From positions 1 to 22,258 of IMG/VR virus record IMGVR_UViG_3300024262_000276: 22,258 nucleotides of DNA. The stretch is one strand, 5' to 3'. This document shows positions 3,987-12,384 of this stretch, piece after piece. A program made the position numbers and the translations under genes. The DNA is from a virus. A model generated the notes under the pieces. That model made no database searches and was not told the DNA's origin. It saw only the letters and a list, made by a program, of their open reading frames with translations. How positions within the stretch are numbered: the stretch's first letter is position 1; each line of letters begins with the position of its first letter.

Positions 3987-4574
3987 CTAGCCGTATCGCG
4001 TGTCCCGACCTTGGGCAAGCTGCCGGTCTACACAGACGGTGCAGTACCGCTGCCGAACAGACCCATCAGCGTTGAAACGGATTCCATCGAACTGGTGTCC
4101 CTGCGGGCAGTGCGTCCTTGCTTCGCGCTGCCTATCCTTCTTAGCGCGGTTGTGCATCTTTTGACACTGACTGCATGTGCGCTGCTTGCCGTTGTGGCCA
4201 TCGAACTGATGACCGTTCTTGCAGTGGATCTTGCGCGCATGCTGATGAGTTCCATGCCGCACGCGGTCATAGTTGTCCTCCGAGGCCGTTCCCCAGGATA
4301 GATTTTCCAGCCTGTTGTCTAGCGAGTTCCCATTGAGATGCCGACACTGCCGCCCCTCTGGACGAGGCCCAACAAACGTCTCTAGGACTAACTGGTGGAC
4401 GTAGTGGCGGCGGAACCTTTGATAGACAGGTCCGCGCTTCTTGGTGGCGAAGGAGTGGGGCCGAATTACCGCCCTGGTGGCAGACCACCGGAGGACTCCC
4501 ATATCGGAAATCTCGATGCCGTCATAACAAGTGGGTCTCCACACCGTCATGACTAACACGGTACCATGCCCCAC
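3987..4574 (-). CDS. HNH homing endonuclease, NUMOD4-like with two zinc ribbons
   Basis: This is a free-standing intron-less HNH endonuclease of 195 residues. Residues 11-30 (VWRP..YDGIEISDMGVLRW) match the NUMOD4 pattern of homing enzymes. The HNH core spans about 59-95: H60 in VHQLVLETFVG, then CRHLNG (77-82), DNRLENL and SWG. Two CxxGH...CxxC modules follow, C118/H122/C134/C137 and C156/H160/C178/C181, likely zinc ribbons for DNA contact. It lies between two tail genes, with gaps of 6 and 33 nt, as selfish endonucleases often do. I took GTG 4574 because GAAGG lies 3 nt upstream. ATG 4550, just before the NUMOD4 motif, is possible but lacks a ribosome site. Confidence 0.88.
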   Translation of the reverse strand: MGHGTVLVMTVWRPTCYDGIEISDMGVLRWSATRAVIRPHSFATKKRGPVYQRFRRHYVHQLVLETFVGPRPEGRQCRHLNGNSLDNRLENLSWGTASEDNYDRVRHGTHQHARKIHCKNGHQFDGHNGKQRTCSQCQKMHNRAKKDRQREARTHCPQGHQFDGIRFNADGSVRQRYCTVCVDRQLAQGRDTRYG

Positions 4575-4580
4575 TAACCT

Positions 4581-6515
4581 TCAGCCAAATATAGTGCCTT
4601 CTCCCAAAAATGCGCCCAGGAGCGACCACACTGCGGCCATCGTCTTGAACGCCGCATTGAACGGGTCGTCACGATCCCTGTCGTCACCAATGGCCAAGGC
4701 CATGGTCAGCGGCCTACCAGGGCCGTACTCCCGCTTGATCCCACTCAACTGGTCTACGTAGATCACCAGTTCTTCCTCAAACCCCAGCCGGTCACCCAGC
4801 CGGAAATCCACGTCAGCCAGCCACGGGTGCCCGTTGACAGTCCTTGCCTTGAACGACGTGTACGGCCTGGTTTTCCAGTTCCCCATTCGCAGGGTGAGCG
4901 CGCTGGCCAGCACATAGGCGGTACCGCCGCCTCGCTCAAAGTGTTCCTGCCACGCCAGGTCCCCCGACTGCCTGGCGCGGATCGGATCAGTGAACCGCTG
5001 CCACGCAAAAAGCACGTTGTCGAGCTGTCCCTGATAGAGGTTGTCGAGACCCGGCGAGCCAGGTAACTGCGTCTGACCACTGACGTTGGCCAGCCAAATG
5101 TTGATGACCTGGCTCAATTGGGCCAGGCCGTACCGGATCGCAAACGTCTGGGCCTGGTTCACGATGGTTGGGCTGCGGCCACCAGTCATGATGGTCTTTA
5201 CGCCGCCCTTGTGCCACGTCAGGTCGGTACTGGACGCGCCTTCGTACTCCCCGCGCCACCAGATCACCTTGGGGGGGTCGGGTGCCACACCCAACAGCTT
5301 CGATATGAGGTAGGAGCGGTCGTAGCCGCTGGCATCCTCAATGGGCTGGCCATGAAGCGTCTGACCTGCGTCGATGACACCGCCGTTGTCCAAGTTGATG
5401 ACAATGGGGGTGATGAGATTGTCCAGGGTCACGCCAATAAGGTTGAGTGCCCCATCCACCACGGTTCCCGTAGGCCCGGTGATCCCATCGTGATCCTCTA
5501 CCGCGAACACCACGCAATTTCTGTTAGGCCGGGACAGAGCGGCCAGCCGCGAGCCGTCCAGTCCGTCCAGGTCGATACCCATAAACTTGAGGAACTGCGG
5601 CCCCGCCTTGATGAGGTCGGTTAGCTCCGTGTGGGGGCTGTCCTCATCCGTGGTCAGCCAGGTGTAGGCGCGGAACACGCAGCCGGAATCCTTGAGAATA
5701 TCCCCCATGCTGCTATGCCAGTCTGTCCACGTAGCACCCAGTGTTGTCCACCGAGACTGATCTAGCAGCGGGTTTACGAACGCTACCTGCAACGGCCAGT
5801 TCATCGGCAGGAAGTTCCTCAACCCACCCGTGTTCAGCGGGTTGATCCAGCCAGCCGGGTTGAACAGGTTCCCGATCACAGACAGTGGCGGGAAAAAGAC
5901 CCTGGCAAGATTTATGAACATGCTGGCAGATAGCACAGAGCGGGTGGGGCCAGGGAGAATCCACATCTTCGGCAGTTGGACTTCCGGCGCAAAGATGGGG
6001 TTGGCCGCGAACAGCAACCGCTTGGCGTGTTCGCGGTGGCTGACCGCGTAAATCTCAATGGTGTGGACACCCTGCTCGTCCCGCAGCAGATGTATCTCGG
6101 TGATCTTGCCGCCCCACCGGGTACGCCAGTCTGGCTTGGTCGGGTTGGGGTCGATCAGGAGATGCAAGTCCTCCATAACCTTGGTCTGGTGCACCATCCA
6201 GTCAACAAGGTGGTTGTCGTACCGAATGGAGATTCGCGCGCTGCCGGTGTCGTGGGCCAGTTCCTCCCACGACAGCGTGGTTTCGTGGTTTAGCTCCATC
6301 AGCACGTCGAGGTTCTTGTCCCCGATCCGTATGAGTGGCCGCTGCCGACCACCGGCAATGATCGCCTCGCGGCGATTCCACAGGTACCTGTAGGAAGCCA
6401 TCGGTTCCCGTACCGGGTCAGGCTTGCCGTCCTCGGCAAAAGCCGGGAGCAGGCTGGACACCCAGTTCGTAAAGCGCATCGAAGCGTTGCGCTTGGCTTC
6501 CTCAAGGATCGTCAT
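4581..6515 (-). CDS. Minor tail protein, Siphovirus ReqiPepy6 Gp37-like
   Basis: This 644-residue protein has the length, position and composition of the Gp37-like minor tail proteins that follow the distal tail protein in actinophages and probably form the tail hub or tip. Features include a basic N-terminus, a ...RIGDKNLDVLMEL segment, a hydrophobic patch near residues 200-260 (MFINLARVFFPPLSVIGNLF), and a C-terminal region with TYTSFKAR-like beta strands and LGDRLGFEEELVIYVDQLSGI. The frame is open up to 6680. ATG 6515 is preferred because AAGGTAGGG lies just upstream, the previous stop is 4 nt away, and the upstream extension is Cys/Arg-rich noise. A receptor or peptidoglycan role is not shown. 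Confidence 0.8.
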   Translation of the reverse strand: MTILEEAKRNASMRFTNWVSSLLPAFAEDGKPDPVREPMASYRYLWNRREAIIAGGRQRPLIRIGDKNLDVLMELNHETTLSWEELAHDTGSARISIRYDNHLVDWMVHQTKVMEDLHLLIDPNPTKPDWRTRWGGKITEIHLLRDEQGVHTIEIYAVSHREHAKRLLFAANPIFAPEVQLPKMWILPGPTRSVLSASMFINLARVFFPPLSVIGNLFNPAGWINPLNTGGLRNFLPMNWPLQVAFVNPLLDQSRWTTLGATWTDWHSSMGDILKDSGCVFRAYTWLTTDEDSPHTELTDLIKAGPQFLKFMGIDLDGLDGSRLAALSRPNRNCVVFAVEDHDGITGPTGTVVDGALNLIGVTLDNLITPIVINLDNGGVIDAGQTLHGQPIEDASGYDRSYLISKLLGVAPDPPKVIWWRGEYEGASSTDLTWHKGGVKTIMTGGRSPTIVNQAQTFAIRYGLAQLSQVINIWLANVSGQTQLPGSPGLDNLYQGQLDNVLFAWQRFTDPIRARQSGDLAWQEHFERGGGTAYVLASALTLRMGNWKTRPYTSFKARTVNGHPWLADVDFRLGDRLGFEEELVIYVDQLSGIKREYGPGRPLTMALAIGDDRDRDDPFNAAFKTMAAVWSLLGAFLGEGTIFG

Positions 6516-6519
6516 GTCC

Positions 6520-7578
6520 CTACCTTGACCGTTTGTAGCGTTGGGGCAGAAAGGCCGTGATAGTTCCATTCTTCGACGAGTGGTACACCCGCAGCTTGAC
6601 CACAGTCCGTGGCGGAATGTTGAACATGAACCGGCGGTCGAACCGCAGTTGCAGCGGCAGGCCCAGGTTGGCCAAGTCATGCAGGAAGAAGTTCAGCAGC
6701 TTGCTCGACCTGGCGATCTTGAGGAACAAGTTATCCACAGGGTCTTTGGCTGCTGTGAGCGTACGGCGTCCCGGCTCCGTGTCACACAGGTACTCGCCGT
6801 CCTGTGGAGATGTGAACGGCATTGGGACAATCACGTCGCTGTTGTTGTCCTGCAACCCCGCATAGCCGGGGGACACGATGTAGGAGGCGTAGCTGGACAG
6901 GTCGCCACGGTTGGCCAGGACAATAACCCCGGTGTGCATGGGGTCTTTGAATCCTTGACGCTCAACTGGCGCACCGGAATCCTTGGCCTTCCACGTCCGG
7001 TACAGAGCAGGCTTGGTGAAGTACGGACGCTGCGCGAACCACTCCAAATCCCATTGCGATGCGTTGTTACCGAAGCTGGTGCTGTCCATTGCCTGCGGGG
7101 TCGAGACGGTACGCGCAGGCCGCACAGGTATCCACCGCCAGCCCGTGTAACGGGTGTAGAACCCCAACCACCCGTCTCTTTCCTCGTCCTGGCCGCTCCA
7201 CCAGTTCTGCTCGGCCATGCGGTACTGGTACTCCGTCATCTGCGGCGCATGTGAGCCGATCACGACACCCACATTGAACTTGCGCGCACGGACGTTCACG
7301 CGATCAACCTCGGCACCCCAGGAATACGCCGACTCCGTGGTCACCAGATCAAACGGCCAGTTCTGATCCCCGTACACCGACTTGGCCAGCCGAACACCCT
7401 GCCTGCCCTTGGCTGGCCCCGCCAGGTTGAACTGCTTCCCATTCGGCGCGATGTAGAGAATGTGGGTCTGCTCGCCACGCAGGGCGGGAGGAAGCCGGTT
7501 GAAGTCTTTGTACGTCTCCAGCGTGCCCTTTGGCAGATACGTTGTGGTCGTACTGCCGGGAAGAAAGTGCTGCGTCAT
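6520..7578 (-). CDS. Minor tail protein, probably distal tail (Dit-like)
   Basis: The 352-residue protein lies directly after the tape measure gene. In siphoviruses that slot normally holds the distal tail protein, the ring that caps the tail tube and begins the baseplate. The sequence is rich in aromatic residues and beta-strand-like stretches (RKFNVGVVIGS, WRWIPVRPARTV, FMFNIPPRTVVKLRVYHSS). The C-terminal part, which binds the tail tip in known Dit proteins, reads like a small beta domain and ends in PQRYKRSR. ATG 7578 overlaps the tape measure stop by 4 nt. Function is inferred mainly from gene order. Confidence 0.72.
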   Translation of the reverse strand: MTQHFLPGSTTTTYLPKGTLETYKDFNRLPPALRGEQTHILYIAPNGKQFNLAGPAKGRQGVRLAKSVYGDQNWPFDLVTTESAYSWGAEVDRVNVRARKFNVGVVIGSHAPQMTEYQYRMAEQNWWSGQDEERDGWLGFYTRYTGWRWIPVRPARTVSTPQAMDSTSFGNNASQWDLEWFAQRPYFTKPALYRTWKAKDSGAPVERQGFKDPMHTGVIVLANRGDLSSYASYIVSPGYAGLQDNNSDVIVPMPFTSPQDGEYLCDTEPGRRTLTAAKDPVDNLFLKIARSSKLLNFFLHDLANLGLPLQLRFDRRFMFNIPPRTVVKLRVYHSSKNGTITAFLPQRYKRSR

Positions 7579-10500
7579 GGCATCGGTCCCGAGGTTGTGG
7601 TGGTGAGCGCAGGAGCGCGGCTGGCGTTGAAGTTCTGCATCTGTGCCCGTTCTACAACATCATTCACTGCCTGGCCGTCCGTAAGCGGCGAGTTGATCTC
7701 AAATGTCGTGACGTTGGGCATCGTCAGCGCGTTGGCAGGCGTGGACGGCGATTGGGTTGGAGCCATCGCGTTACCCGGCCCAGGAGAGCCACCGGGAGTC
7801 CAATGCTGGCCACCCGGCTTGAGCAGATTGTTGGCCCCCGGCATCATGCCGCCGAGCAGGCCACCCAGCATGTCCGTGCCACCCGGCTGGGCGGCACCCT
7901 GCCCCCCCTTGCCGATGCTGTCGGCCAGACCACCCGCATAGTTGATCCCGCCAGCGAACAGCTTCCAGATACCCCACTGCGTCGGATCGGAGAACACGCT
8001 GCCGTCCAGGCCAAGCCCCTCCAAGATGCCCGACACCAGACCCTTACCCAACGCCTCCGCGTTCTTGTCTGCCTTGAGGGCAGCATCCTCATTGGCCTTG
8101 GTTGCCTTACTCAGCGACAGTGCGTATTCAGTCTGCGCCCTGGCCTGCGCGTCGTAAGCATTCTGCAAAGCATTGAGCCTGTTCTCCAAGGTGGAGTAGG
8201 TGTTCAACTCCCGCTCTCGGGCATCGGCCAGACGCTGATCCACGTCAGTGCCCTGCAAGCCCTGAGCGGCCCTTTCCAGTTCAGCCACCGTGGCCTGCGC
8301 CTCGGCGAAATCGCGGCGAGACTTTGTAATCTCACCTTCCAGGTTCTTGATGGATTCCTCAGTGTTGGCGATGCGGTCTTGCTTGCCCTGTAGCTCTAAC
8401 GCCCTGCGGTCTGCGTCGTAGTCGCCGGAAAGTTGCATAGGTGCCGTAGGTGCTGGCGTGGGCAGAAGCGAGGGATTGGGCCTCTCGGGAAGATGGCTTG
8501 TAAGCGATTCCGGCAGACCCGACGAAGGCGCACTGGGAACCAGGCCGCCGGGTGGGGACGCGGCGGGAGCGGTGGTGCCCTTGTCCCACTTCTTGTAGCC
8601 ATCCGGCACTTCCTGACCCATTGCCTTGTACCACTGCACTACATCGGCAAAAAACTCCTCCTCGGGCACACCATCTGCCGGGGCCAGAGGCTTGCCCTGT
8701 CCGTCGTATTTCCACCCAGGCTTCTTGGCGGGGAGTGATGGCTTGGCCGGGGCTGCGGGAGCAGCGGGAGCAGTAGGGGCAGGGGCGGGGGACGGAGCAG
8801 GGGCAGACGGAGGGGCAATACCCAGCGTTGCCAGAACATCTGGCGGGACATAACTGTTGTTATTGAATCCGGCCTTGGCGAGCGCGGCCTGCATCTCCGG
8901 TGTCATCCAGGACGGCATGCCGCTGATCTGCTGGCCCAGTCCTTGTACTGCGCCGGGACTTGGGACGGGAACGCCAGCGGTAGTTGGGGCCAGACCTGGC
9001 CCCTGGATGGGCTTCCCATTGAACTGAATGTCAATGTGATCCATGTGGTTCGCGGAGATGTTTCCGAGGTCCTTCATCACATACGACGAGCCATCCACCA
9101 TGTTCTGCATGGTCTGCCGCCAGATGATGTACTTGATTCCCAACTGCTGCGCGTTCATCTTGAGCCACGCATTGATGGCATCGCCGTACTGCATGTCGAG
9201 TTGGCCGCTGGAATCTCGCGGCATCACCACGTCGATGGCCATGCCAGCGTCGTGTGTGCCGGGAGCGTTGGGGCGCGCACCCGAGCCGCCGATGTCCGTG
9301 ATGCGGGGGAACATCTGCGCGATCCACGCTGCCGCCGTCTGACCCTGCGGCCCGGTGGTAACGCCAGGCAGATTATCTTTGAGGATGCCCGGTGCCCCCA
9401 GGCTGCTGGGAGAGCCGAACGGCACCATGCCGGGAAGGCCCATCATGCCGCTGCCGCTGCTCAGGTCCAGCGAGATGGAAAGTCGACCCTCGGAGTCCGT
9501 GACCTGCTGGCTGCGCGGGATACCCAATGCGTCCAGAATGTTTTTCTTGGGGTCGAGAATGTCAATCTCCATTTGGAGTTCCCGACCGGTGTTCTTCTTG
9601 TACCAGTCCTCAAACTTTTGAGCCACAATGTCGTTAGCTGCGGAAATGCCGGTGACAACACCCTCTTGGGTTTCCTCAAAGATGATCCCGGCCTGCTCCA
9701 TGCCGATCTTGAAGGTGTCAATGTCGCCAGTGATCTTGAACTCTTTGGTACCGTCCACCGCCTGGACGGCAGCGACTTCCTCGCCAAGGTGGATCGTGCT
9801 TTGCTTGGCGGCATCGGCCATCTTGGCGTAGGACATAACGCCTTCTCTGGCGTTGCCGACGCGCTCCCTGAACTGCTCAATGGCGGGAACCACCGACAGC
9901 GCGGTATCGCCAAAGCCCTTCAAGGATTTCTCTATGTCGAACTGTTGGACGTTCTCCAAGAACCCGGTACGCAGTTCGTTCAGCGACTTGTTCGTATCCG
10001 CAAAGTCCCTACCGACCTGACCTGGGATGAGCGATCCAACTTTGGTGATCGCCTCGGCAGTCAGCAGGACTGCCTGCATCCCCTCAATGGTTATGTCGAT
10101 GATGCCTTCGATGGTCCCGGCGGATGCCTTGAGCGCGTTGGCGGTGACCTCAACAAGCGTCTGCGTACCGGACAGGATTACGTCGAACACCTTGAATGAC
10201 ATGTCCATAATCTGGAGGTTGTTTTCCTCAAAGAACTTGGACACCGTTTCGCCAAAGCCCTGGAACTCCGAGAGCAACGCATCGCCAACCGGCTCCAAGC
10301 TGACCAGGATGCGGTTACCCAGTTCACCCATGATCTGACTCATGGTGAGCGACTTCTCGACGGCCTCCGTCAAGCTGCGGTTGTAGCCGTCCCCCAGCCC
10401 CTCCATCTCGGCACGAACGTCAACAACGCCCTTCATGATGCCTTCGGACAGAGCATTGGCGACCATGCTGCTGCCGGTCATGTCGGTCATCATGGCGACG

Positions 10501-11588
10501 AGAGCCTTTTGAGCGTCCTCGACCATGCCCCTGTCGTAAAGCTCCTGGTACCGCCGCTTGCCCTCGGCAATGACCCGGTCCCACACCTGGCCGACAGTCT
10601 CGCCGGTTTTCTCGGCCACCTTCGCCAGGTTGCCGGTCAGGGTGTTCATACCCTCGGTGATGTACTCCTCGTTGATGCCGAACTCCGAAAAGCCCTTGAG
10701 CATTTGGCCCAACTGCGGCAGTTCCAAACCGATACGGCGAGCGGAGCCTTGCAGGCGGTCCAAGCTGGTAAGGAACTGGGTGGGTGCCCTACCCGTCTCG
10801 GCCATCAGGTTGATGAGTTGGGTGAACTGCTCCGACGCTTCTTCGGCAGAGACGTTGAAGCCCTTGAACAGGCCGGTGATCTGCTCAATGTCCAGCGGGG
10901 ATTGGAGAAGCTGGATGGCCTCGCCGTAGCGGGTGGTGAACTCTTTCAGTTGCTCGGCGTTCTCCCGCCACCCCATGCGTTCACCGATCTTGCCGATGGA
11001 CGCAGAAATGTCGTTGATGTCTACGAACCTGCCGCTTCCGGCAATGTCGCGCACCATGTCCTTGTAGACGCCCAGCGCAGTCTCCGTCTGGGCGGTGCTG
11101 GCCAGCAAGTCGCGCTGTATCTCGCGCCACCGCTCCCCTACCTCGGCGTACTGGTCGATAATCATGCCGCCAATGTCAATCAGCGGCTTGGCCACATCGA
11201 CCATCGTCCCGACAGTCTCACCCCAAATGGCACCAATTTCGCCCATCTTGCCGGGGAGCTTTTCCAGCGCACCGCCGAAGGTGAAAATCCCCTCGGTAAC
11301 TTCCAGCATCGAACTGGTTGCGCCGGTAAACATGCCACTCAGGTCGGGGGCCATGCGGTTCAACGCCTGGCTCATCGCATCTGAGAACTCGCTGGCCGTC
11401 CTGGTGCCCACGCTGGCAGCGATCTGCGCGAACTGGCCAGTGGTGGACAGGAAGCCCTGCGAGGCAGCCATACCCCAGTCGGCACCGTTTTTCTTGAACC
11501 CATCGACAACGCCTGCCATCGACGGCGCAACCGAGACGAAGAACCTGGCCAGACCGCCGCCAGCCGCTGCCGCTGCAGGTGCCGTCAT
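7575..11588 (-). CDS. Tape measure protein with embedded zinc-peptidase-like domain
   Basis: This is the largest gene (1337 residues) and sits directly after the tail assembly chaperones, the hallmark of the tape measure. Residues up to about 560 are long helical stretches. A cassette near 760-860 has H779-D780-A781-G782-M783-A784-I785-D786 and H848-M849-D850-H851-I852-D853, the spacing of HxxGxAxD...DHxD in M15-like and ARB_07466-like peptidoglycan peptidases. A Pro/Ala-rich linker follows near 890-950, then a coiled coil (KNLEGEITKSRRDFAEAQ). At about 1.5 angstroms per residue the protein could span at most about 200 nm. ATG 11588 overlaps the stop of the chaperone T frame (TAATG). Confidence 0.93.
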   Translation of the reverse strand: MTAPAAAAAGGGLARFFVSVAPSMAGVVDGFKKNGADWGMAASQGFLSTTGQFAQIAASVGTRTASEFSDAMSQALNRMAPDLSGMFTGATSSMLEVTEGIFTFGGALEKLPGKMGEIGAIWGETVGTMVDVAKPLIDIGGMIIDQYAEVGERWREIQRDLLASTAQTETALGVYKDMVRDIAGSGRFVDINDISASIGKIGERMGWRENAEQLKEFTTRYGEAIQLLQSPLDIEQITGLFKGFNVSAEEASEQFTQLINLMAETGRAPTQFLTSLDRLQGSARRIGLELPQLGQMLKGFSEFGINEEYITEGMNTLTGNLAKVAEKTGETVGQVWDRVIAEGKRRYQELYDRGMVEDAQKALVAMMTDMTGSSMVANALSEGIMKGVVDVRAEMEGLGDGYNRSLTEAVEKSLTMSQIMGELGNRILVSLEPVGDALLSEFQGFGETVSKFFEENNLQIMDMSFKVFDVILSGTQTLVEVTANALKASAGTIEGIIDITIEGMQAVLLTAEAITKVGSLIPGQVGRDFADTNKSLNELRTGFLENVQQFDIEKSLKGFGDTALSVVPAIEQFRERVGNAREGVMSYAKMADAAKQSTIHLGEEVAAVQAVDGTKEFKITGDIDTFKIGMEQAGIIFEETQEGVVTGISAANDIVAQKFEDWYKKNTGRELQMEIDILDPKKNILDALGIPRSQQVTDSEGRLSISLDLSSGSGMMGLPGMVPFGSPSSLGAPGILKDNLPGVTTGPQGQTAAAWIAQMFPRITDIGGSGARPNAPGTHDAGMAIDVVMPRDSSGQLDMQYGDAINAWLKMNAQQLGIKYIIWRQTMQNMVDGSSYVMKDLGNISANHMDHIDIQFNGKPIQGPGLAPTTAGVPVPSPGAVQGLGQQISGMPSWMTPEMQAALAKAGFNNNSYVPPDVLATLGIAPPSAPAPSPAPAPTAPAAPAAPAKPSLPAKKPGWKYDGQGKPLAPADGVPEEEFFADVVQWYKAMGQEVPDGYKKWDKGTTAPAASPPGGLVPSAPSSGLPESLTSHLPERPNPSLLPTPAPTAPMQLSGDYDADRRALELQGKQDRIANTEESIKNLEGEITKSRRDFAEAQATVAELERAAQGLQGTDVDQRLADARERELNTYSTLENRLNALQNAYDAQARAQTEYALSLSKATKANEDAALKADKNAEALGKGLVSGILEGLGLDGSVFSDPTQWGIWKLFAGGINYAGGLADSIGKGGQGAAQPGGTDMLGGLLGGMMPGANNLLKPGGQHWTPGGSPGPGNAMAPTQSPSTPANALTMPNVTTFEINSPLTDGQAVNDVVERAQMQNFNASRAPALTTTTSGPMP

Positions 11589-11965
11589 TACGCCTCCTTC
11601 GCTTGGGCGTAGCGTTCCGCCAGCCGCTCATCGAAATCGTCCCACTCATACACGTCTGCGGGGAACAGCGTGTTAGACGGCGTGCCGCGCTGCTCGCTCA
11701 TACCCTGCTGGGGGCGGTCGTACCGCTCAGGCAATTCCGCTAGACCGGCGTTGCCTTCCTGCAAGTTGGCGAGCAGATGATCGGTTTGAGTCCAGCCGCC
11801 CTGGAGCGCGTTTTTCAATGCACTCTGCGGCTGTGGGGCCACGCACATAGCCACCAGTTCCAGGAGGGGGAGGCGGTGGGTGAACATGTCGGCAACCGTT
11901 CTTCCGGTCGCCACAATGTCGGAGACGAGAGCTAGCCAGTGGGTGCCGACGCAGTACGTCAGCAT
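11588..11965 (-). CDS. Tail assembly chaperone T part, made as G-T fusion by -1 frameshift
   Basis: This 125-codon frame lies one base back from the end of the G gene and continues into the tape measure gene, as lambda gpGT does. It is most likely read as a fusion: ribosomes translating G slip at GGGGGAA (11977-11971) and continue as ATC CTG ATG..., giving a product of about 265 residues. The fusion would run from 12384 to 11588 with one base re-read. The ATG at 11965 has no ribosome-binding site of its own, so separate translation is unlikely. The end (EWDDFDERLAERYAQAKEA) is acidic and helical. The fusion recruits tape measure protein during tail assembly in known phages. Confidence 0.82.
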   Translation of the reverse strand: MLTYCVGTHWLALVSDIVATGRTVADMFTHRLPLLELVAMCVAPQPQSALKNALQGGWTQTDHLLANLQEGNAGLAELPERYDRPQQGMSEQRGTPSNTLFPADVYEWDDFDERLAERYAQAKEA

Positions 11966-12384
11966 CAGGATTCCCCCGGCGGCGCACTCCCCTTCGGCTC
12001 AACGACGGGGCTGGTAGCGGACTGGAACCAGCCTTTCCAGAACTGCTCGCGCTCCACGGGGGATAAGTCCATGACGCGCTCCTGCACGCTGCGATCAACG
12101 CCAGCGCGGTTCATCCACTCAAAGCTCTGGTAAAGCTCGTTGAGGTTGTAAATCTCCCACAGGAACTTGGCGTCGATTTCGACCGTGGAGATGGCGGGGA
12201 ACACGATGGGTTCACCGCCACTCACCGGACGGAACGTGTATGTGGGACGGACAGGTTTACTCTCAGGCCCTGCCGCCTGCTCGGAAGGCGGCAGGGCTGC
12301 TTCTGTCTGGTGATTCAAAGGCCGTTCCGAGCGGTCCTTGACGCTTTTCCGAGCCTTGCGCCTAGGCGTAGCGGCTTGAGTCAT
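11965..12384 (-). CDS. Tail assembly chaperone (gpG-like)
   Basis: The 139-residue protein lies between the tail tube gene and the tape measure gene. It has a basic Lys/Arg- and Pro-rich N-terminus (PRRKARKSVKDRSERP), a middle with VRPTYTFRPVSGGEPIVFP and a helical C-terminal half (FLWEIYNLNELYQSFEWM). It ends ...PPGES just after the slippery heptamer. In lambda and its relatives gpG, together with a smaller amount of the frameshift fusion gpGT, chaperones tape measure assembly and is absent from the mature tail. ATG 12384 overlaps the stop of the tail tube gene (TGATG), suggesting coupled translation. Confidence 0.87.
   Translation of the reverse strand: MTQAATPRRKARKSVKDRSERPLNHQTEAALPPSEQAAGPESKPVRPTYTFRPVSGGEPIVFPAISTVEIDAKFLWEIYNLNELYQSFEWMNRAGVDRSVQERVMDLSPVEREQFWKGWFQSATSPVVEPKGSAPPGES
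11971..11977 (-). promoter_or_regulatory. Programmed -1 frameshift site GGGGGAA
   Basis: On the minus strand the G frame reads CCG GGG GAA TCC TGA. Sliding back one base on the G run puts the ribosome in the open T frame (ATC CTG ATG CTG). G-rich heptamers of this form are known slip sites in actinophage tail chaperone genes. No clear downstream pseudoknot was identified by eye. Confidence 0.82.

Follow-up and report, generated by a model that had tools for sequence, protein, structure and literature searches.

Aspartate in the third zinc-ligand position of an MT3 cassette in a phage tape measure protein

The window, that is, the whole stretch of DNA that was analysed, covers a virus record of 22258 bases from end to end (IMGVR_UViG_3300024262_000276). 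Its minus strand carries a head-to-tail module of genes for terminase, portal, protease, capsid, major tail protein and two tail chaperones, followed by ORF 7575-11588 and minor tail proteins. This ORF encodes a phage tape measure protein, as seen from its length, its position in the tail genes (preceded by the major tail protein and the tail assembly chaperones, followed by minor tail proteins) and its family matches, including PHROG 9228 'tail length tape measure protein' (E 2.2e-17, best stretch residues 756-859). The features are listed in Table 1.

Table 1. Tape measure gene, MT3 domain and residues of the predicted metal site (positions in the window)
Feature	Position	Strand	Basis
Tape measure protein gene, 1337 aa	7575..11588	-	ORF, PHROG 9228 match, tail gene neighbours
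MT3 (VldE-like) domain with margins, residues 740-870	8979..9371	-	homology, fold model
R772, aligns to VldE R294 (transition-state arginine)	9273..9275	-	alignment
H779, aligns to VldE zinc ligand H301	9252..9254	-	alignment
D780, acidic neighbour of first ligand	9249..9251	-	count over 160 complete domains
D786, aligns to VldE zinc ligand D308	9231..9233	-	alignment
W823 of the conserved I-W pair	9120..9122	-	alignment with TM4
MKDLGNISAN, at the MxDRGSxTxN segment of His-type domains (VldE zinc-zipper loop)	9048..9077	-	alignment
H848, aligns to VldE H370 (proposed base)	9045..9047	-	alignment
D850, aligns to VldE D372	9039..9041	-	alignment
H851, aligns to VldE H373 (activity-essential, not catalytic zinc ligand)	9036..9038	-	alignment
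D853, at the place of third zinc ligand H375	9030..9032	-	alignment

Several further observations were made in this module. An HNH endonuclease gene (3987-4574, minus strand; PHROG 1492, E 5e-41) lies among the tail genes. The two tail-chaperone ORFs (11588-12384, minus strand) share a single base, and each is matched by tail assembly chaperone families, an arrangement suggestive of a translational frameshift; an A6 run, the sole type of slippery run scanned for, was absent from this region. The true start of ORF 4581-6680 (minus strand) is probably further in, because it begins inside the gene before it and the best match to a minor tail protein covers it from residue 72 onward. PHROG 971 'endolysin' matched the tape measure protein best at residues 1041-1314, outside the cassette described below, and it matches TM4-like tape measure proteins outside their cassette as well. 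RefSeq also gives the name 'endolysin' to the tape measure proteins of TM4 (L002, NC_003387.1) and several relatives, and the label is therefore no evidence of catalysis. Six short peptide patterns, sensitive to close relatives only, found no relative of the whole tape measure protein in IMG/VR.

A zinc-peptidase-like cassette resembling VldE and ARB_07466 had been proposed in this protein by the earlier note, which placed it at 8995-9320 (about residues 757-865). Homology, predicted fold and position agree with that proposal, and the cassette, at about residues 740-862, is an MT3 domain, known as 'motif 3' in the TM4 tape measure protein and as the catalytic domain of VldE. Residues 756-907 matched the TM4 tape measure protein by tblastn (E 8e-14, 36.6% identity), and the I-W pair reported at the centre of motif 3 (PMC1796659) is present as IIWRQ, with W823. 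In a phmmer search of the PDB, the VldE entries 9flh to 9fln were the sole significant match (E 2.8e-10; runner-up E 0.92). Among 50,697 phage records searched by tblastn, the whole protein had 447 matches at E <= 1e-5, mainly Mycobacterium (333) and Gordonia (95) phages, and the domain alone matched 485 records at E <= 1e-3. Neither Pfam nor NCBIfam had a model that scored above its cut-off on the cassette; Pfam VanY (PF02557, peptidase M15) reached 13.2 bits against a cut-off of 25 (E 0.078). Since none of 35 family members was matched by any Pfam model at E <= 0.01, the missing match says nothing about the cassette. A cassette of this kind is in itself ordinary, as a wall-cutting motif 3 in the TM4 tape measure protein gp17 was reported in 2006 by Piuri and Hatfull (PMC1796659), and the VldE domain, named MT3 after TM4, was described with its structure and catalytic residues in 2024 by Miguel-Ruano and co-workers (PMC11667670).

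The earlier note had suggested a structure prediction as a check. Residues 735-872 were modelled by AlphaFold2 with 34 relatives (pLDDT 87.7, pTM 0.82), and the model matched the VldE fold with Z 15.5, rmsd 2.0 A and 108 aligned residues; because 26 of the 35 alignment rows were of the type with histidine as third ligand (His type), it leans to the VldE fold. Foldseek matched it to the catalytic conformation of VldE (E 1.5e-8 for 9flm and 2.6e-8 for 9fln). The best row other than VldE had Z 6.6 and an unrelated fold, and other LAS proteins (hedgehog, DacB/LdcB, MepA, RB49 peptidase) scored Z about 6 or less, interspersed with unrelated folds. Among the BFVD matches were a protein named ARB-07466-like (E 2.6e-6) and, with weaker scores, Gordonia tape measure proteins.

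The motifs H779-x6-D786 and H848-M-D-H851 lie where the earlier note had placed them, and their codons were confirmed in the minus-strand ORF. The note took H779, D786 and H851 as the zinc ligands. In VldE the catalytic zinc is bound by H301, D308 and H375; H370, D372 and H373 are likewise needed for activity, R294 is proposed to stabilise the transition state, and alanine at H375 or D372 abolishes activity, as the VldE paper reports (PMC11667670). H779 and D786 correspond to the first two ligands and stand, while H851 corresponds to H373, and the third ligand has its counterpart in D853. The VldE alignment is free of gaps across the last strand, is followed by the same N-G in both proteins and sets H375 opposite D853; the entry 9fln is an H373A mutant and shows alanine opposite H851. 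An hhalign comparison of the profile of domains with aspartate as third ligand (Asp type; profile A3, which includes the window) with the His-type profile was also gapless through the motif (prob 99.7). Because the gapless alignment puts H375 on D853 and H373 on H851, H851 is, by alignment, the first histidine of the HxH motif and an aspartate occupies the third-ligand position. D853 and R772, which were absent from the earlier note, both matter for the metal site. The LAS (clan MD) ligand set is thus present in part in the window: H-x(3-6)-D is found as H779-x6-D786, and the third-ligand histidine, given as such in the LdcB paper (PMC4087270), is absent, so the domain should not be classed with the typical LAS zinc peptidases.

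The survey of this aspartate covered 220 loci, taken from named phages, from IMG/VR and from both GTDB and other genomes. A profile found the domain in 183 of them; the other 37 all came from short DNA patterns and were most likely chance hits, e.g. unrelated H-x-D-H-I-D proteins (L206 and L207). The 183 loci gave 164 distinct cores, 160 of them complete and four in pieces. Histidine stands at the third-ligand position in 150 of the 160 distinct complete domains and aspartate in 10, frequencies that are not prevalences, since several scans targeted the Asp type. The ten comprise the window, the Omegavirus phage WXIN (genome paper PMC11186097) and the IMG/VR domains L020, L021, L022, L023, L035, L040, L135 and L136. 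An acidic residue directly follows the first ligand in all ten (eight Asp, two Glu), whereas none of the 150 His-type domains has one. Two of the incomplete cores come from a single Asp-type gene in Mycolicibacterium canariasense that is split between the ends of two contigs, and its N-terminal piece also has an acidic residue after the first histidine; the other two belong to the His-type L176 gene with an internal stop.

In the GTDB sample (80 of 101 matches), 79 loci had histidine and the remaining one was the M. canariasense piece that ends before the motif. The family of this genome has 401 genomes, of which 127 had a match at E <= 1e-12, and 30 loci plus 20 further regions (18 among those matches) were examined. 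The 26 records of named phages comprised WXIN as the one Asp-type member and 25 of His type, including Che8 and Heath. Che8, a phage named with motif 3, was considered as an Asp-type candidate and ruled out by its motif HEDHVH. When the phage collection was searched by tblastn with the Asp-type domains of WXIN, L135, L020 and L035, WXIN was the top record each time, the lower records being examined in part, so that additional phages of the Asp type may exist among them. The Asp-type open frames have 927 to 2575 aa, some ending at contig or locus ends, and PHROG tape-measure families matched all ten ORFs and both M. canariasense pieces (weakest L144/L136, E 4.8e-6, on the cassette only).

In a tree of 70 of the 155 usable rows, with nine of the ten Asp-type domains (L035/L141 left out), the Asp type formed one clade (support 70/69; 68% of 200 bootstrap trees). 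The His-type Patience adjoins this clade on a long branch, where a meeting of long branches is to be reckoned with. A single origin of the Asp type is thus favoured, though not firmly, by the tree, and since these sequences are related, the aspartate and its acidic neighbour count nearer to one event than to ten. In the literature found, with search terms partly aimed elsewhere and few subscription journals covered, the Asp-for-His variant was not named.

Within the Asp type, H779, D786, W823, H848, H851 and D853 are invariant in all ten domains, position 850 is D or N, and an Arg lies within four residues of [IV]GG. The dN/dS ratio was 0.24-0.42 in the seven of 45 pairs that had few enough changes (two above 0.3, at 0.32 and 0.42); these pairs are close, come from one clade and are not independent. 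The Asp-type domain is under purifying selection in these seven testable pairs. A loop like MxDRGSxTxN is recognisable among the ten domains in the window alone, and a second Asp-type domain without it (L021) gave the same predicted fold as VldE (Z 14.0, rmsd 2.2, 100 aligned). The loop is also missing from the His-type domains L150, L198 and L200, which retain all three ligands, and from a further His-type domain, L218 (GHQDHIHAK). These four may be intermediates toward the Asp type, as judged from their sequences.

Compared with known systems, the window cassette and TM4 motif 3 are one and the same domain, each within a tape measure protein, and both have I-W, H-x6-D and HMDH; TM4 differs in having HMDHVH and MEDRGSDTQN in place of HMDHID and MKDLGNISAN. 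VldE (Spr1875), an L,D-endopeptidase of Streptococcus pneumoniae, has the predicted fold of the window domain, and its R294, H301, D308, H370, D372 and H373 are identical in the window; the differences are H375 (D853 in the window), R363 and E368 of the zinc-zipper loop, which lie opposite Leu and Ala, and that VldE is a cellular enzyme. The other Asp-type domains (WXIN and eight IMG/VR loci) have the third-ligand aspartate and the acidic residue after the first histidine in common with the window, but lack a loop like MKDLGNISAN, and some have a second lytic domain downstream. In clan MA zincins the third metal ligand is reported to be His, Glu or Asp, with Asp in the Asp-zincins (PMC3890501). 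These provide a precedent for the exchange and have the third-ligand aspartate in common with the window, while their fold, clan and motif (HEXXHXXGXXD) are unrelated.

The homology, the predicted fold, the tape-measure position, the gapless D853 alignment, the conservation of the Asp type and the purifying selection in the testable pairs are results of the present analysis. On this basis we give slightly better than even chances to a working wall hydrolase, an MT3 domain carried by the tape measure protein whose metal site would consist of H779, D786 and D853 (His/Asp/Asp); that it binds a metal, its catalytic activity, its substrate and its part in entry are all predicted. In this protein and the few related Asp-type tape measure proteins, one histidine and two carboxylates would coordinate the metal, where the usual set is two histidines and one carboxylate; H848 would act as the base, H851 as the second catalytic histidine, and R772 would steady the transition state. 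Carried in the tail, the cassette would reach the cell wall as the tape measure protein exits, and may then cut a peptide bond of the peptidoglycan, so that the tail tip or the DNA can pass. The suggestion of the earlier note that the cassette opens the peptidoglycan during infection has an experimental precedent by analogy in TM4, where motif 3 in a hybrid protein is reported to support peptidoglycan hydrolysis, and where the exchange W853G at the conserved Trp reduced the infection of stationary cells (PMC1796659). The benefit of wall cutting would be greatest in cells that are not growing, in line with the report on TM4: the phage without motif 3 was viable and its infection of stationary cells was lowered (PMC1796659). 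Therefore, even an active window domain need not be essential.

The main rival explanation, to which we assign a clearly smaller but serious chance, is that the Asp type is a decayed, non-catalytic enzyme, which the tape measure protein retains for binding peptidoglycan or as a structural insert. Loss of the third histidine could mean loss of function, because histidine stands there in 150 of the 160 domains and alanine at the equivalent position inactivates VldE (PMC11667670). The recognisable loop is missing from the other nine complete Asp-type domains, and activity is further spoken against by position 850, as alanine at VldE D372 is inactive, yet asparagine stands there in five of the ten Asp-type domains, and by the Leu of the window at R363. 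The cutting could also be done by another lytic domain downstream in some Asp-type tape measure proteins. Among six Asp-type ORFs or pieces searched with Pfam, Transglycosylas (Rpf-like) follows the cassette in L140 (181-4464, plus strand; E 3.3e-21) and L147 (1-1233, plus strand; E 8.3e-22), a sub-threshold Phage_lysozyme2 follows it in L137 (445-4464, plus strand) and L142 (1-2958, plus strand), and neither domain was found in L134 and L144; no second lytic Pfam domain was found in the tape measure protein of the window. Against decay, a dead domain should have lost some of H779, D786, H848, H851 and D853, but all five are kept in every Asp-type domain, and the seven pairs show purifying selection. 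The loop-less His-type domains L150, L198 and L200 keep their three ligands, so loss of the loop alone is no sign of decay.

It is improbable that the register is shifted, with H851 as the third ligand, as in the earlier note, and D853 as a second-shell residue. HxD motifs occur in other M15 proteins, and the H-I-D of the window resembles that of some M15_3-type proteins. In addition, the YcbK paper describes a member without the HxH motif (PMC3927764). However, both the strand alignment with VldE, with its common N-G, and the profile comparison pass through the motif without a gap, and the models of the window and the second Asp-type domain both match VldE to residue 380. Least of all do we expect a metal site for a non-cutting use, e.g. 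another metal that stabilises the fold in the tail, for although two carboxylates with D780 make the site more acidic, non-zinc metals are thinkable and VldE is reported to have a multi-zinc, non-catalytic state (PMC11667670), such a use has no need to keep H848, H851 and R772, which are catalytic in VldE.

More tentatively, we propose that the Asp type forms a group of active His/Asp/Asp metallopeptidases, in which the third ligand was exchanged from His to Asp within the LAS fold together with the gain of an acidic neighbour of the first ligand, as a clan MD parallel to the Asp-zincins. Such a site might have another metal preference or pH optimum, so that it would work only at the cell wall.

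In conclusion, the window carries a known MT3 cassette, and its distinctive part is, by comparison of sequences, an uncommon exchange at one of the metal ligands that define the LAS class, conserved in a small group of related phage tail proteins. The cassette probably works like a LAS zinc peptidase, with activity and metal as predictions. The replacement of His by Asp is a natural experiment on a ligand for which each of the 150 remaining distinct complete domains has histidine. If the Asp type is dead, phages retain a decayed hydrolase, sometimes beside a second lytic domain. If it is active, the fold tolerates a changed metal site, and the Asp type would be a second class of phage wall enzymes.
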